Notes under the pieces: model-generated
Database searches by the model: none
What the model was told of the DNA's origin: nothing
The model's input: only the letters and a program-made list of their open reading frames with translations
Program-made: the position numbers and the translations under genes
NCBI GenBank assembly: GCA_026987075.1
Contig: JALSNI010000048.1
Location: 1 to 35,914 of the forward strand
Direction: 5' to 3'
From: Persephonella sp.
GTDB taxonomy: Bacteria > Aquificota > Aquificia > Aquificales > Hydrogenothermaceae
Length of the DNA stretch: 35,914 nt
Shown: piece by piece, positions 29,407 to 35,822 of the stretch
How the letters are laid out: each line of letters starts with the position of its first letter
Position numbering within the stretch: the stretch's first letter is position 1

Positions 29407-29894
29407 AAAGAAACTGGCCTTTTATCATCATTACAGGATTTGGTATTCTTGCTACACTTATCTTCCTTTACATTTTTGTTTACAGTTTAGCAACAAACAC
29501 AGTAAAGTCAGCAGTTTTGCTTGAAAAGGCTTACCCTCACATAAAACCACAGGAATACATGAACTTTCTTCAAAAAAAGGCAGAAAAAAATAATCTCAAG
29601 ATTATTCAGATAAAATCAGAAGAAAACTACTTTTTAGTTCAGATAATAAACGAAAAAATCGTCAATGAGCTGTTTTCCCTTGCTCCTCAGGTTGCTCCTT
29701 TGGGAATTGTAAACTTAGTTATTTATGACCTTGGAGATGGAACAGGCATTGTGGGAAACAATCCTTATGTCTGGGATATTGTTATTGACAGTAAAAGAAT
29801 AGACGAGATAGCACAGAATTATTCTGAATTTCTGTCTGATGTTTTAGACAGTATATACTGGGACTACAAAAAAGAAAAGGAGATGCTGAAGTAA
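29403..29894 (+). CDS. Membrane-anchored protein, possibly DUF302-like
   Basis: A 163-residue protein has an N-terminal transmembrane anchor (about 6-30) and a soluble alpha/beta domain outside it: MNFLQKKAEKNNLKIIQIKSEENYFLVQIINEKIVNELFSLAPQVAPLGIVNLVIYDLGDGTGIVGNNPYVWD. The two-repeat pattern and the late NPYVWDIV-type segment suggest DUF302, but this is weak. Its function is unknown. The start overlaps the 45-residue gene, and its stop overlaps the COG0720 gene start by one base, so the three are co-translated. Confidence 0.6.
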   Translation: MKRNWPFIIITGFGILATLIFLYIFVYSLATNTVKSAVLLEKAYPHIKPQEYMNFLQKKAEKNNLKIIQIKSEENYFLVQIINEKIVNELFSLAPQVAPLGIVNLVIYDLGDGTGIVGNNPYVWDIVIDSKRIDEIAQNYSEFLSDVLDSIYWDYKKEKEMLK

Positions 29895-30241
29895 TGCCGT
29901 TTATTATAAGAGTAAAGAGAGAGTTTCAGGCAGCCCATTATCTGACAGACTATCACGGAAAACCTGAACCACTCCACGGTCATACATGGGAGGTTGAGCT
30001 TTTTATAAAAGCAGAAAAGTTAGACAAAGGGGGAATGGGTTTTGATTTTGTAGAGATACATAGATTTTTAGATAAGATACTACCAGACTACAAATGTATG
30101 AATGATATATACGACTTTTCCCCCAGTGCAGAAAATGTAGCAAGGCACATATACCAGCAGGTCAAGAAAAAATATCCCACCCTCCAGAAAGTTGTCGTAT
30201 GGGAAACAAAACACGGGGGAGCTGAGTATTACGAAGAATAA
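29894..30241 (+). CDS. COG0720 (QueD/PTPS) family protein with altered active site
   Basis: A 115-residue pterin-synthase-fold protein. Zinc ligands are kept: His15 in FQAAH, and His28 and His30 in LHGHTW; Glu104, the substrate-binding Glu, is kept in VVWETKHGG. Compared with E. coli QueD, the nucleophile Cys (CxxxHGH) is Pro24, and the catalytic His of the Asp-His pair is Tyr66 (DYKCMN instead of DHxxLN). Glu25 lies three residues before HGH, the position I recall for PTPS-III enzymes, which replace dihydroneopterin aldolase in folate synthesis. Queuosine synthesis by this protein therefore seems unlikely. ATG 29894 overlaps the preceding stop. Confidence 0.82.
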   Translation: MPFIIRVKREFQAAHYLTDYHGKPEPLHGHTWEVELFIKAEKLDKGGMGFDFVEIHRFLDKILPDYKCMNDIYDFSPSAENVARHIYQQVKKKYPTLQKVVVWETKHGGAEYYEE

Positions 30242-30255
30242 ACATTGACAGTATT

Positions 30256-30284
30256 TAGACAGGTAATATCTTAATTACTATAAG
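30256..30284 (+). promoter_or_regulatory. Promoter of the kaiC-like/HTH operon
   Basis: TAGACA (30256-30261), a 17-base spacer and TATAAG (30279-30284): five of six matches at each box. It lies 22 bases before the start codon and is overlapped by an inverted repeat. Confidence 0.6.
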
Positions 30285-30287
30285 ATA
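30267..30287 (+). promoter_or_regulatory. Inverted repeat over the -10 box, candidate operator
   Basis: TATCTTA (30267-30273) and TAAGATA (30281-30287) are perfect inverted seven-mers with a seven-base gap, overlapping the spacer and -10 element. The geometry suits a dimeric repressor with a small HTH; the HTH protein encoded in the same operon is the obvious candidate. Confidence 0.5.
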
Positions 30288-30305
30288 AACATTAAGGAGG
30301 GCGGA

Positions 30306-31205
30306 ATGACAGAAGACCCAAAATTTCACGAAGAATCTGAAAGGGTTCACGAATACAGAGAGCCTAAAGTCGTAAAAGAAAGTATCTTCACAGGAAGTAA
30401 AGCCCTTGAAAAAGCTCCCAAAATCTACGGTATACCAACAGGAATAGAAGGTCTTGACGATTTATTTTTTATTGTCGAATCAGAAGATGGAAAAATAGTA
30501 AAAAAAACACTTGGAGGAATTCCAGCCTACTCTGTGTTCAACATTACAGGTGTTTCTGACACAGGAAAATCACTGATGGTTGAACAGTTTACAGTAGAAC
30601 AGGCAAGAAAAGGGCATAAGGTAGCCTTTATCACCGTTGAATCTCCTGCAAACTTTGTTATAGCTTCCATAAAGCTGAGAGCTGCAGCTATGGGATATAA
30701 CTTTGAGGAGTTTGAAGACAACGTTATTCTGATTGATGCTGCGTCCCACTCTACACTTAGAGAAAACATACCAGACCTTCTTGCAACACTGGCATATGCC
30801 ATAAAAACATATCACATCAAGTTCACAGTAATAGACTCTGTGACAGGACTGTTTGAAAACAAAGAGATGTTAGCAAGGGGAGTAGTTAGAAGACTGTTTA
30901 ACTTTATGAAAAAGTGGTATCAGACTGCTCTGTTTGTATCTCAGAAAAGAAGCGGACACGAGGAACTTACAGCAGAAGCAGCAGGTGGTTATGCAGTAGG
31001 GCATATCGTTGACGGAACAATGGTTTTAGCAAAAGAGCTAATAGACTCTTCCTTTAAAGCAAAACTATACAGAAAGGAAGTGGGAGACATTGTTCGGCTT
31101 TTCAGAATAGATGGATGCAGAATGTCTGGACATGATACAAAAACCCACTACCTTGAAATTACAGATACAGGACTGGTAAGGATATTAGAACCAATAGGAA
31201 AATAA
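30306..31205 (+). CDS. KaiC-like RecA-superfamily ATPase
   Basis: A 299-residue single-domain KaiC homologue. It has GIPTGIEGLDDLFF, a Walker A at about 82-89 (GVSDTGKS), FITVESPANFV, the Walker B region FTVIDSVTGLF (about 173-183), and a C-terminal strand region DGTMVLAKELI...RLFRIDGCRMSGH. KaiC-like ATPases of archaea and thermophiles are seen as signalling modules; no clock is implied. The catalytic Glu pair that follows Walker A in KaiC (EE) appears only as TVESP. AGGAGGGCGG lies before ATG 30306. The next gene encodes an HTH protein with the same AAGGAGGGCG site, so the two form a unit. Confidence 0.87.
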   Translation: MTEDPKFHEESERVHEYREPKVVKESIFTGSKALEKAPKIYGIPTGIEGLDDLFFIVESEDGKIVKKTLGGIPAYSVFNITGVSDTGKSLMVEQFTVEQARKGHKVAFITVESPANFVIASIKLRAAAMGYNFEEFEDNVILIDAASHSTLRENIPDLLATLAYAIKTYHIKFTVIDSVTGLFENKEMLARGVVRRLFNFMKKWYQTALFVSQKRSGHEELTAEAAGGYAVGHIVDGTMVLAKELIDSSFKAKLYRKEVGDIVRLFRIDGCRMSGHDTKTHYLEITDTGLVRILEPIGK

Positions 31206-31226
31206 AAACATAAGGAGGGCGATAAA

Positions 31227-31880
31227 ATGGTAGTGTTACTTACATCAAAACCTGTAGATGAACATGATTTAGAGCAGTTAGTAGGAAGGGTGTTCTTTAA
31301 AGCTATAGACCTTCTTGGAGGTCTTCATAAATTAGCTGAATACAGAACATTAACCTGGCTTCCATCACTGGCAAGAGCTGCATTTGCCATAGTTTTGAGG
31401 GAGGAATACCTGAAAACAGAAGAAGAGATAGCAGAGATTGTAGGACTGACAAGAAACACTGTAAGAAACATACTCAGAGCAGACCCAAATGCTGCAATGT
31501 TCAAGATTGAGCATATGGACGAGCTAACCAAAGAAGAGAAAAAAGAGCTGAGAGTCCACACGGCAGGAGGAGTTGCAAAACTTGCATACAAACTGGTCAA
31601 AGAAGGAAACGAAGCTCAGACACTTTTAGAGTTCTGCAGAGAAATCTCAGCAAAAGCTGTTCAGGTATGTGAAGCTCCATGGGCTTACACAGTGCTGAAA
31701 CACACAAAAGGGCTGAAATATCCTGTTGAAAGCCCAGAAGCCCTTAAAGAAAAACTGTCTGGTATAACCATCAAAGGACTGTCTGCTGAAGAAGTAGCAG
31801 AAAATCTCACATATCCTATAAAAAATCCTGCCCAGCTACTTCACGAGATAAAAGAGTTCTTACAGATGAAAGAGGTTTAA
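31227..31880 (+). CDS. HTH regulator associated with KaiC-like ATPase
   Basis: A 217-residue protein has an HTH at about 64-85 (TEEEIAEIVGLTRNTVRNILRADP), after an N-terminal helical part, and a mixed C-terminal region (ELRVHTAGGVAKLAYKLVKEG...). I recall NCBI calling such proteins KaiC-associated regulatory domain proteins in Aquificales and archaea, which fits its place directly after the kaiC-like gene. It presumably binds DNA in response to the ATPase state. AAGGAGGGCG precedes ATG 31227. A strong terminator ends the unit just after it. Confidence 0.78.
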   Translation: MVVLLTSKPVDEHDLEQLVGRVFFKAIDLLGGLHKLAEYRTLTWLPSLARAAFAIVLREEYLKTEEEIAEIVGLTRNTVRNILRADPNAAMFKIEHMDELTKEEKKELRVHTAGGVAKLAYKLVKEGNEAQTLLEFCREISAKAVQVCEAPWAYTVLKHTKGLKYPVESPEALKEKLSGITIKGLSAEEVAENLTYPIKNPAQLLHEIKEFLQMKEV

Positions 31881-31884
31881 AGGA

Positions 31885-31908
31885 GCGGGCTAAAAGCCCG
31901 CTTTTTTT
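31885..31908 (+). terminator. Intrinsic terminator after the HTH gene
   Basis: GCGGGCT (31885-31891), AAA loop, AGCCCGC (31895-31901), then seven T's (31902-31908): a textbook rho-independent terminator. Only 26 bases separate it from reverse gyrase, so that gene needs read-through or a promoter inside the HTH gene. Confidence 0.93.
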
Positions 31909-31934
31909 AATTTCTGTCAGGAGAGAGGAAGAGA

Positions 31935-34900
31935 ATGAAAAAAGAGACAATACCTCTGATTTATAAAAATATGTGTCCTAACTGCGGAGGAGACATAACC
32001 TCTGAGAGACTGTTTAAAGGTCTTGTATGTGAAAACTGCCTGCCAGAAGAGATAGACAGGAAAGAACTGTGCGACTTTTTAGGATACGGCAGGTTCACAG
32101 ATGTATGTCATCTATGGGATAGAGTCAGGGACTTTAAACAGTTTTTCAAAGAAATAATAAAAAACGACCTGTGGTCTATACAGGAAACATGGGCTACAAG
32201 GTTTTTTATGAACATCTCTTATGCTTTGCTGGCACCAACAGGTATAGGAAAAACAACATTTGGTCTTGTTTTATCAAAATACCTGAAGGAAAAAGAAAAC
32301 AAAAAAGCATACCTGATTTTCCCAACACAGATGCTTGTTAATCAGGCTCACGAAAGACTTGTATCTTTTGGTGTTCCAGAAGAGGAGATATTAGCCTACA
32401 CATCAAAGTTTGCCAGCACAAAGAAAAGACAGGAAGAGCTGAAAGAAAGAATAAAAAACAATGATTTTCAGATACTTTTAACAACAACTATGTTCCTATA
32501 CAAGAACATAGACATCATCCCAAAGGGTGAATATGCACTTGTTTTTGTTGACGATGTGGACAGCATTTTAAAAACAGCAAAAAATATAGACAAAGTGCTG
32601 ATGCTTTTAGGATTTTCTCAGGAAGATATTGATTACACTCTAAAGTTTATAACATTTAAACAAAACCTGTTTAAAAAAGGACAGCCTTCAGAAGAAGATT
32701 TAGAAATTTACCAGCACTGGCAGTCAAAAATCCAGAAAATAACGCAGAAGAGGAAAGGAGTTCTTATAGTATCGTCAGCAACATCAAACCCCCGCTCAAA
32801 AAGGGTAAATCTGTTCAGAGAGCTTTTAGGTTTTGAGGTTGGAAGACCATCCCTCACACTGAGAAACATAGAAGACGTGTATGAAAAACCAGAAAATGTA
32901 TGGGAAAGAAGCATAGAGGTTATAAAACAGCTTGGAAAAGGTGGGCTTGCTTTCCTGTCTTCGTCAGAAACAGTAGAGACATTAGAAAAATATGTAGAAT
33001 TTTTAAACAAAAATGGGATAACTGCTGTTTCTTATCAGGATTTAATGGACAGGATAGATGAGTTCAGGGAAGGAAAAATCCAGATTGCTGTAGGTTTTGC
33101 CAGCTATAGAAATCCACTGGCAAGGGGAATAGACCTGCCTGACGTGATTAGATATGCTGTATTTGTAGGTGTTCCAAAACTTCAGTTTAACATCAGATTT
33201 GAAGAAGAATTTATTCATTTATACTACTTTCTCCTCTCTTTAACACCTTTCCTTGCAAAGAAAAAACTGATTGACCCTGTTCAGATAAAACAGCTTTACG
33301 ACTACATAAATTACCTAAAGATATACGCCTTTATTCCCCCTGAAAAATTAGAGCCTGAAAAGTTAGAAAAGATGAGAAAGATACAGCTGTATGTTAGAGA
33401 GCTGATAGAAAAACCTGATATTTTTGCAGCTGTTCAGCAGTCTCCAGAAATAACACTGAAAAAAGAGGGGGACAGTTTTGTTCTGACTACAGCAGACGTT
33501 ACAGGATACATTCAGGCATCAGGAAGAACATCAAGACTATACGCTGGCGGTCTAACAAAAGGGCTTGCATATCTGCTCGTTGACGATGAAAAAGCATTTT
33601 ACTCACTTCAGAAAAAGGTGCGGTGGTTCAGTGAAGATATACAGTTTAAACATATTAAAGAAATAAATCTTGATAAGCTGTTGGAAGAGATTGACAGAGA
33701 CAGGGAAAAAGTAAGAAAAGTTCTGTCAGGACAGATGATATCAGAAGAGAGACAGTCCTTCCTCACTACTGTTGTTGTTGTTGAATCCCCAAACAAAGCA
33801 AGAACAATAGCAAACTTTTTTGGAAAACCCCTTAGAAGAAGACTGAAAAATCTTGATGCCTATGAGATAGCAATAGGAGATAGATTTTTAACAATTGTTG
33901 CAAGCAAGGGACACGTTTTTGACCTTAATAAAGAGGAAGAATACTTTGGAGTAAAGAAAAACGGCTCCTTTATTCCTATTTTTGAACCGATTGATGAAGG
34001 GAAAAATCAGATTATACAGAGTATAAGGGAGTTAGACCTTGAGGTAAACGAGATATTCATAGCCACTGACCCTGACACAGAAGGGGAGAAGATAAGCTAC
34101 GACCTATATCTGAACTCACTTCCGTATAACTACAACATAAAAAGGGCAGAGTTTCACGAGGTTACCAAATGGGCATTCTTAAATGCTGTAAACAATCCAA
34201 GGGATTTTGATGTCAATCTTGTGAAAGCACAGCTTGTCAGAAGAATAGCCGATAGATGGATAGGATTTACCATATCCCAGTATATACAGGAAAAACTCCA
34301 CAGACACTGGCTGTCTGCAGGAAGGGTTCAGACACCTGTATTGGAGTGGATTATAGATAGGACTGACCAGGCAAAACAGAAGATAGCTATAATTCGTGTT
34401 GAGATAAATGGTTATCCATTTGAGTTTCAGTTTGAAGATAAAAAGAAGGCAAAATGGTTTTATGACCATCTACAGTTTGTAATGATTGAAGAAAAAGAGA
34501 AAAAAGAGGAGCACCTGTTTGTAAAACCATTCACCACAGATATTATGCTTTCAGAGGCAGCAAGAGAGCTGAGGTTTTCACCTCAAGAAACTATGCAGCT
34601 TGCACAGGACTTGTTTGAAGCAGGTCTGATAACATACCACAGGACAGACAGTTTCAGAGTTTCTGAAGCAGGAGTTTTTGTAGCCAGAGAATACATAACA
34701 GAAAACTTTGGAGAAGAGTATCTGAAAGTAAGAACATTCTCAGGAGCAGGAGGAGCCCACGAATGTATAAGACCAACAAAACCGATGGATGCTGATGACT
34801 TGAGGTCTACAATATTTACTATGAACATTCAGGGAATAACAAACAGGCATATAAAACTGTACGACCTTATATTCAAAAGGTTTATTGCCTCACAGATGAG

Positions 34901-35438
34901 AGAAACAGTCGTTGAAAAAACGCTATTTGAGGTGAAGGCTTTTGATGAAAAGATTGAGGAAGAAATAAACACAAGAATTATCCAGCACGGATACGACCTT
35001 ATTTTACCTGTGAAAATATACACCATTCCTACAGGGAAAGTAGAAGTTGAAAACAAGAAATCCTACCACCTTAAGCCAAAACTGCCCTACTATACATTTG
35101 CTACAGTTATACAGGAGATGAAAGAGAAAGGTATAGGAAGACCCTCCACATATGCTGTTACTGTGCAGAAACTGTTAGACAGACATTACATTGTTGAAAG
35201 AAGGGGATACCTGTTCCCAACAAAGCTTGGAAGAGCCGTTATTTCCCTTATAAAGAAAAGAGAAGAGATATACAGATTTGTAAGTGAAAACTTCACAAAA
35301 CAGTTAGAAGAGATTATGGACAGGGTAGAAAAAGGAGAAGCTGACTATCAGAAAGAGTTAGAGAAACTGTTCACACAGCTGAAAGAAAAAAGGCTGTTTT
35401 TCAAAGTGAGATTGGGAGAATATGCATACGAGGAGTAG
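31935..35438 (+). CDS. rgy: Reverse gyrase
   Basis: This enzyme introduces positive supercoils; it is the hallmark of hyperthermophiles. The 1167 residues show an N-terminal zinc finger (CPNCGG...VCENC, 14-35). The helicase-like half has Walker A APTGIGKTT (100-108), VFVDDVDS (203-210), VSSATSNPRSKR and SGRTSRLYAGG. The type IA topoisomerase half has VVVESPNKARTIA (about 613), TDPDTEGEKISYDL (about 710), SAGRVQTPVLEWI, the catalytic Tyr901 in GLITYHRTDS, and IGRPSTYA. All essential residues are present. No second CxxC zinc finger at the domain junction is seen; many family members have one. ATG 31935 has AGGAG and GAGG upstream. Aquificales often have two reverse gyrases, so this may not be the only one. 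Confidence 0.97.
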   Translation: MKKETIPLIYKNMCPNCGGDITSERLFKGLVCENCLPEEIDRKELCDFLGYGRFTDVCHLWDRVRDFKQFFKEIIKNDLWSIQETWATRFFMNISYALLAPTGIGKTTFGLVLSKYLKEKENKKAYLIFPTQMLVNQAHERLVSFGVPEEEILAYTSKFASTKKRQEELKERIKNNDFQILLTTTMFLYKNIDIIPKGEYALVFVDDVDSILKTAKNIDKVLMLLGFSQEDIDYTLKFITFKQNLFKKGQPSEEDLEIYQHWQSKIQKITQKRKGVLIVSSATSNPRSKRVNLFRELLGFEVGRPSLTLRNIEDVYEKPENVWERSIEVIKQLGKGGLAFLSSSETVETLEKYVEFLNKNGITAVSYQDLMDRIDEFREGKIQIAVGFASYRNPLARGIDLPDVIRYAVFVGVPKLQFNIRFEEEFIHLYYFLLSLTPFLAKKKLIDPVQIKQLYDYINYLKIYAFIPPEKLEPEKLEKMRKIQLYVRELIEKPDIFAAVQQSPEITLKKEGDSFVLTTADVTGYIQASGRTSRLYAGGLTKGLAYLLVDDEKAFYSLQKKVRWFSEDIQFKHIKEINLDKLLEEIDRDREKVRKVLSGQMISEERQSFLTTVVVVESPNKARTIANFFGKPLRRRLKNLDAYEIAIGDRFLTIVASKGHVFDLNKEEEYFGVKKNGSFIPIFEPIDEGKNQIIQSIRELDLEVNEIFIATDPDTEGEKISYDLYLNSLPYNYNIKRAEFHEVTKWAFLNAVNNPRDFDVNLVKAQLVRRIADRWIGFTISQYIQEKLHRHWLSAGRVQTPVLEWIIDRTDQAKQKIAIIRVEINGYPFEFQFEDKKKAKWFYDHLQFVMIEEKEKKEEHLFVKPFTTDIMLSEAARELRFSPQETMQLAQDLFEAGLITYHRTDSFRVSEAGVFVAREYITENFGEEYLKVRTFSGAGGAHECIRPTKPMDADDLRSTIFTMNIQGITNRHIKLYDLIFKRFIASQMRETVVEKTLFEVKAFDEKIEEEINTRIIQHGYDLILPVKIYTIPTGKVEVENKKSYHLKPKLPYYTFATVIQEMKEKGIGRPSTYAVTVQKLLDRHYIVERRGYLFPTKLGRAVISLIKKREEIYRFVSENFTKQLEEIMDRVEKGEADYQKELEKLFTQLKEKRLFFKVRLGEYAYEE

Positions 35439-35486: not shown

Positions 35487-35822
35487 ATGCAGAAGATTTT
35501 TATTTTTATGATATTTGTGTTATCTACCTTTGTATACGCCAGATCAGAAATTGTGAAACCAGAATATGTGTGTATGGTTAACGACAGATTTATGGGTGTA
35601 GAACAGATTCCAGTTAAAGTAGACGAAAAGGTTTACTATGGATGCTGTAAAATGTGTATAGGTAGACTGCAAAATAATGAAAGTTTACGCTACGCAGTAG
35701 ATCCCATCTCAGGTAAAAAGGTAGATAAGGCAAAAGCGGTAATACTGAAACAAAAGGATGGCTCTGTGCTGTACTTTAAAAATGAATCTAATGCCAACCG
35801 GTTTATCAAAAACAATTACTGA
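35487..35822 (+). CDS. Exported TRASH-like metal-binding protein
   Basis: A 111-residue protein has a signal peptide (about 1-18, ending VYA) and a cysteine cluster: Cys29 in [11 protein letters not shown], then YYGCCKMC (Cys53, 54, 57). [35 protein letters not shown] follows. The Cys pattern with DPxSGxxVDKA and the YF...N end is what I recall for small periplasmic TRASH-like proteins next to copper and other metal systems, so copper or zinc binding is probable. AGAGGGA precedes ATG 35487. Its end overlaps the convergent gatB by seven bases. It follows rgy by 48 bases, without a terminator in between. Confidence 0.8.

Follow-up and report, generated by a model that had tools for sequence, protein, structure and literature searches.

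In the stretch of DNA analyzed here (35,914 nucleotides of a Persephonella sp. contig, JALSNI010000048.1; referred to as the window), the genes for a KaiC-like ATPase (kaiC), an HTH-type partner and reverse gyrase (rgy) follow each other on the forward strand, and we found that the order kaiC-HTH-rgy also exists in Nitratiruptor-type Campylobacterota, that is, in a second phylum. Both families of the kaiC-HTH pair are already catalogued, the ATPase as TIGR03878 and its partner as TIGR03879, a probable regulatory domain. The one-line descriptions of these families do not mention reverse gyrase, and by comparison with them the order of the trio and the overlap of its genes in Campylobacterota go further.

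Gene products of the trio

The open reading frame at 30306-31205 (+ strand) encodes a single-domain KaiC-like ATPase that matched the TIGR03878 profile (thermo_KaiC_2) over residues 40-297 with 460.7 bits (cut-off 232.2). The protein shares the ATPase family PF06745 with the cyanobacterial circadian KaiC (TIGR02655), and KaiC chains were its top sequence matches among solved structures. However, circadian KaiC is composed of two tandem domains, whereas the KaiC domain of the window's ATPase forms one stretch (residues 43-295), and the score against TIGR02655 amounted to 33.9 bits at a cut-off of 546. Weak matches to RecA/Rad51 were also returned by the domain search. Alignment of 11 sequences disclosed a Walker-A-like GVSDTGKS and invariant residues G82, D85-K88, E112 and D177. 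We take GVSDTGKS together with E112 and D177 to be the motifs of an active ATPase, and the predicted protein is consistent with such an activity. It is 63-90% identical to the KaiC proteins of 10 other Aquificota, in settings linked to rgy and unlinked from it alike.

The HTH-type partner (31227-31880, + strand) matched TIGR03879 (near_KaiC_dom) with 128.7 bits (cut-off 65.1). Hence, both products of the pair pass curated NCBIfam cut-offs, and the adjacency of their genes is what the name near_KaiC_dom leads one to expect. Matches of the HTH-type protein to Pfam HTH and sigma-region families all lay under their cut-offs. Its predicted structure is helical (mean pLDDT 86.8); structure searches with this model gave weak PDB matches, with nothing from Foldseek at an E value of 0.001 or better and a top Z of 5.5, obtained with a designed protein, and a sequence search against solved structures gave two weak matches (E 0.014 and 0.73). 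Sequence and model together suggest that the protein may bind DNA.

Reverse gyrase, which is characteristic of organisms living in the heat, is encoded at 31935-35438 (+ strand). Its product scored 1258 bits against TIGR01054 (cut-off 472; residues 6-1150) and harbors DEAD, Toprim and topoisomerase domains, i.e., it is a helicase-topoisomerase fusion. An earlier sequence-only reading had described a gene pair for an ATPase and a HTH-type protein that adjoins rgy and has a promoter and a terminator to itself; this part of the reading is supported. Upstream of kaiC, a QueD/PTPS-like gene (PF01242) is located at 29894-30241. Behind rgy, a small open reading frame (35487-35822) gave a sub-threshold match to a TRASH domain; it is 98% identical in the nearest relative, G081, and has no match behind rgy at the loci L293 and L294.

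Promoter, inverted repeat and terminator

The upstream regions of kaiC were compared in an alignment of 13 rows, comprising the 12 members of the window's genus with kaiC (window included) and G080. TTGACA (30245-30250) is present in all rows and is followed 16 nt on by a TATxTT hexamer in 12 of them, G084 having TAATTT. The corresponding sigma-70-type promoter of the kaiC-HTH unit, TTGACA-16-TATCTT (30245-30272, + strand), was the best of three promoter-like sites within 29800-32000, for which shuffled sequences averaged 4.3 sites. The sequence-only reading had assigned the promoter to TAGACA (30256-30261) and, 17 nt downstream, TATAAG (30279-30284). These letters are indeed present, but TAGACA is kept in only three of the 13 rows (window, G081 and G093), and this assignment of the -35 and -10 regions is probably wrong, the conserved hexamers pointing to TTGACA-16-TATCTT instead.

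The same reading had proposed the inverted repeat TATCTTA-N7-TAAGATA (30267-30287) as an operator to which the HTH protein binds, thereby repressing its own operon. The repeat exists and overlaps the conserved -10 region, but it is not conserved and probably not functional: the palindrome is absent from all 11 genus relatives with kaiC and from G080 (0 of 12 other upstream regions), and in G081 the right arm reads TAAGAAA, by which the repeat is broken. Partial conservation of the left arm in relatives may be due to the fact that this arm overlies the conserved -10 region. In the genome of 1.66 Mb the exact sequence occurs only once. Allowing up to two mismatches, 33 forward places were detected (one exact, one with one mismatch and 31 with two), compared to 16 for a reversed control pattern, and no regulon could be derived from these counts. 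When the 64-bp intergenic stretch was shuffled 5000 times with its dinucleotides preserved, 155 of the shuffles contained a perfect inverted repeat with 7-bp arms and a loop of 3-12, which makes the repeat mildly unusual; such repeats were also present in 27 of 561 tiles of 64 bp from the window. In total, the window holds 54 perfect 7-bp-arm inverted repeats, overlapping registers counted. Its position over the -10 region and its slight rarity thus speak for autorepression through this site, while its absence from the other upstream regions, in spite of an identity of 92-99% between the window's HTH protein and those of six genus members compared (99% in G081), and the lack of a second exact copy in the genome speak against it. 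We consider this mechanism highly improbable, and the palindrome was rejected as an operator on grounds of conservation. In three Nitratiruptor-type trio loci (L265, L266 and L268) we noticed by eye a different inverted repeat, TGCAA-N6-TTGCA, before a TATAAT hexamer upstream of kaiC. This repeat may be considered as a possible operator, although two of the loci, L266 and L268, are closely related.

Behind the HTH gene, the hairpin GCGGGCTAAAAGCCCGC and seven T ending at 31908 make up an intrinsic terminator of the pair (31884-31908, + strand); the ATG of rgy at 31935 follows 26 bases later. On both points, the terminator and the distance to rgy, the earlier description was correct. At this position, 11 of 12 genus members have a GC-rich hairpin followed by several T, the twelfth being G093, whose frames are broken. 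It is this conservation that makes the case for the terminator and not the number of sites, since two terminator-like sites within 29800-32000 compare with 1.6 in shuffled sequences. In G093, a metagenome-assembled relative (locus L121), the broken frames are those of kaiC and the HTH gene and may reflect assembly error or decay. The hairpin was also seen behind the HTH gene in four family members without rgy at this place (G080, G072, G076 and G077), three of which have a T run of five or six, while the tail of G080, TTTACAC, is weak. Of these four, G072 lacks a rgy over the cut-off, and the other three have the gene at another place. Thus, the terminator seems to be the pair's own. A terminator that melts with rising temperature was also considered and rejected, because the stem stabilities calculated for 75 C are unremarkable, amounting to -4.0 to -6.4 kcal/mol in ten genus members and to -4.5 to -7.1 kcal/mol in the four relatives without rgy behind the stem.

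A promoter scan of 11 genomes disclosed no sigma-70-type promoter in front of rgy that is common to the genus, while in 10 of these genomes the same scan did recover the promoter of kaiC. The best promoter-like sites before rgy scored 8 of 12; their positions are shared within subgroups and differ between them, and G084 has none. Judging from these sequences, rgy may possibly be transcribed by read-through, from a non-consensus promoter, or by both, and read-through from kaiC-HTH into rgy is plausible.

Distribution and phylogeny of the trio

Searches of 136 Aquificota genomes revealed TIGR03878 in 114, TIGR03879 in 116 and rgy in 123 genomes over cut-off. Both kaiC and rgy are present in 108 genomes, kaiC only in 6, rgy only in 15 and neither in 7 (p 0.001, taking the genomes at face value and ignoring incompleteness). 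Within the window's genus, 12 of 14 genomes contain kaiC, and in all 12 the genes kaiC, HTH and rgy lie on one strand. The remaining two genomes are both incomplete: in G085 the HTH gene alone exceeds its cut-off, and G086 is devoid of all three genes, as judged for rgy from the best E-value. According to the listed coordinates, kaiC and rgy are adjacent in at least 13 of the 108 Aquificota genomes possessing both, contig ends hiding some cases. The only neighboring case outside the genus in these coordinates is G078, a further member of the window's family, in which rgy is divergent from the pair, with 80 bases between the start codons. Hence, the expectation that the pair neighbors rgy elsewhere holds for the genus, for a second phylum and for G078, but in most Aquificota with both they lie apart. 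The term "self-contained", which had been used for the unit, is doubtful too: within the window's family the HTH gene adjoins kaiC at 30 of 33 loci (including the window itself and one locus with reversed order), but outside this family it lies directly behind kaiC in only 7 of 58 Aquificota loci and is also found at other places. In seven Aquificaceae loci (L123, L127, L130, L134, L135, L140 and L141), the upstream sequence places the unlinked HTH gene directly behind an apparent tRNA gene. At L095 (G030), kaiC is followed by an open reading frame of 510 aa, transposase-like by eye, and the HTH gene comes only after this frame, at a distance of about 2 kb.

A genome scan, from which the best 80 out of 164 loci were kept, gave a rgy-like open reading frame in view at 16 of the 80: five of the window's genus, ten of the Campylobacterota type and G078. 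Among these best 80, the trio is present at 10 of 11 loci assigned to Nitratiruptor, Campylobacterales, Campylobacterota or Epsilonproteobacteria; an additional locus, L206 of Desulfurellaceae, is without it. In nine Campylobacterota-type trio loci, whose rgy starts (GTG or TTG) are putative and derived from the frame, the HTH stop codon overlaps the rgy start in eight cases and directly adjoins it in the ninth, so that a terminator would not fit between the two genes in the Nitratiruptor types.

We also determined the co-occurrence of the genes in 80 genomes drawn evenly from one Campylobacterota order, the centre of which (G137) had been chosen for having the trio. Over cut-off, the HTH gene was found in 9 and rgy in 10 genomes, which divide into eight with both, one with the HTH gene alone (G190), two with rgy alone (G216 and G230) and 69 with neither (Fisher p 1.4e-8, ignoring kinship); both genes may simply mark thermophily. 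Looking at the 11 genomes with HTH or rgy, kaiC is present in exactly the nine that bear the HTH gene. The trio is adjacent in five of the eight genomes with HTH and rgy. G230, which we took as Nautilia profundicola, contains rgy and neither gene of the pair; its rgy and that of the window are members of one large clade. Passages of PMC2628731 report that N. profundicola rgy is induced over 100-fold at 65 C, so that in this organism rgy can respond to heat in the absence of the pair.

Trees were inferred quickly, with SH-aLRT support only, and contain several long branches. In the rgy tree, 16 of 24 Hydrogenothermaceae rows, all 15 Campylobacterota rows and one unplaced bin form one clade (100), which stands apart from Aquificaceae. 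The rgy of G078 is sister to Thermodesulfobacteria (100), with which its HTH protein is also grouped (91), while its KaiC belongs to a clade of 21 rows (98) comprising Thermodesulfobacteria, Sulfurihydrogenibium, Hydrogenobaculum and some Aquificaceae, within which it is not placed as the sister of Thermodesulfobacteria. Genes also disagree in other members of the family. In G104, KaiC and HTH are of the Aquificaceae type and rgy is of the Hydrogenothermaceae type. The Hydrogenothermaceae genome G065 (L260) has a KaiC that lies among those of its family and a rgy grouping with Desulfurobacteriaceae, which suggests that this rgy came from a separate transfer. The rgy of G073 falls inside the clade of the window's genus; in this genome, rgy and the HTH gene lie on different contigs. 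The trio may be ancestral to both phyla or may have arisen twice; the former implies that the linkage was lost in the near relatives G080 and g8, and in G073.

Evolutionary distances of KaiC and rgy were compared by partial Mantel tests controlling for rpoB, in 48 of the 53 genomes searched; five genomes with missing or partial rpoB, the window's included, were left out. All 48 genomes together gave r 0.23 (p 2e-4), and the 12 Campylobacterota genomes gave r 0.57 (p 0.002). There was no association in the 35 unlinked genomes (r 0.01, p 0.41), in the 26 Aquificota genomes (r 0.08, p 0.16) or in the 14 Hydrogenothermaceae genomes (r 0.02, p 0.42). Given these null results, the overall value seems to rest on the linked and the Campylobacterota genomes.

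Possible relation of the pair to reverse gyrase

The reading we favor, tentatively and at somewhat less than even likelihood, is that the pair is an ATP-dependent regulator or helper in a heat/DNA-topology response and is co-expressed with rgy where the genes are linked. ATPase and HTH-type partner would be transcribed as a unit, from a sigma-70 promoter to a terminator that belongs to them. In the Persephonella-like genus, rgy just behind this terminator would most likely be transcribed at least partly by read-through, and in the Nitratiruptor-type Campylobacterota the same three genes would be tightly coupled with no apparent terminator. In the linked lineages, rgy would be one output of the response. 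Read-through and any functional link of the pair with rgy are what we infer here; the reading is favored by the trio in all members of the genus with kaiC and at nearly all Campylobacterota-type loci among the best 80, by the gene overlap, the co-occurrence and the neighboring genes of G078, as well as by the conserved terminator and the lack of a genus-wide promoter before rgy in the 11 genomes scanned. The heat-induced genes PF1931 and PF1932 of Pyrococcus, described below, may be cited in its favor as an analogy. A tight link is opposed by the low share of Aquificota genomes with adjacent genes, by the null distance tests and by the pair-independent heat induction in N. profundicola. The placement of the G078 KaiC and the possibility that both families only mark thermophily also count against the favored reading. 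A narrower version, in which the pair is devoted to the control of reverse gyrase and depends on ATP for it, being co-translated with rgy in the Nitratiruptor types and acting in Persephonella through a terminator that heat or the HTH/KaiC proteins weaken to set transcription into rgy, appears distinctly unlikely; if it were true, positive supercoiling would follow temperature and energy state.

The adjacency could also be incidental, the pair and rgy being separate thermophily genes brought together, with rgy transcribed from a weak or non-consensus promoter of its own. This explanation is quite possible, if short of probable, as pair and rgy are unlinked in most Aquificota with both and show no signal of co-inheritance there, the terminator is apparently the pair's own, G216 and G230 have rgy without the pair, and weak promoter-like sites before rgy do exist and are common within subgroups. 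It is at odds with the conservation of the order in two phyla, in one of which the genes overlap, and with the divergent arrangement in G078. Alternatively, the pair might serve general heat-stress signaling with no specific relation to rgy. The genes PF1931 and PF1932 of Pyrococcus furiosus, which are numbered consecutively and code for a KaiC-domain protein and a predicted transcriptional regulator, are described in passages of PMC10746257 as strongly heat-induced targets of Phr and may have such a role. These genes are archaeal, are assigned to the Phr regulon and resemble the window's pair by description, so that the comparison remains an analogy. Although the similarity of KaiC proteins in linked and unlinked settings fits such a role, the repeated placement beside rgy does not, and we regard it as unlikely. 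Overlapping genes are common for interacting proteins, and the HTH-rgy overlap in the Nitratiruptor types together with the weak RecA/Rad51 matches of the ATPase might point to a topology or repair complex, in which HTH and KaiC act on DNA directly with reverse gyrase and not as transcription regulators. The interaction is putative, and in most Aquificota with both the genes are unlinked; this explanation seems very unlikely to us.

Titles and abstract openings among the matches listed in the literature searched revealed no dedicated regulator of bacterial reverse gyrase. A link between the pair and reverse gyrase was not found in this literature either, most subscription journals lying outside it, as does Figure S2 of PMC2628731, according to its legend a rgy neighborhood. 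Where reverse gyrase and KaiC were mentioned jointly in the literature searched, it was in separate contexts; COG0467 together with reverse gyrase gave nothing there. The text portion of PMC6878951 contains neither "KaiC" nor "neighbo". A literature search on TIGR03878, TIGR03879 and related names matched only the string af0795, in papers with unrelated titles. A link to rgy would give a first role to these two strongly conserved families, which are named only as KaiC-domain protein and probable regulatory domain. A small ATPase/HTH-type unit that adjoins rgy in members of two phyla, and in the Nitratiruptor types even has a stop codon in common with the putative rgy start, is a candidate regulator in organisms amenable to testing. 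One trio-bearing genome, G232, was taken as Nitratiruptor SB155-2, for which a table of PMC2628731 gives best growth at 55 C.
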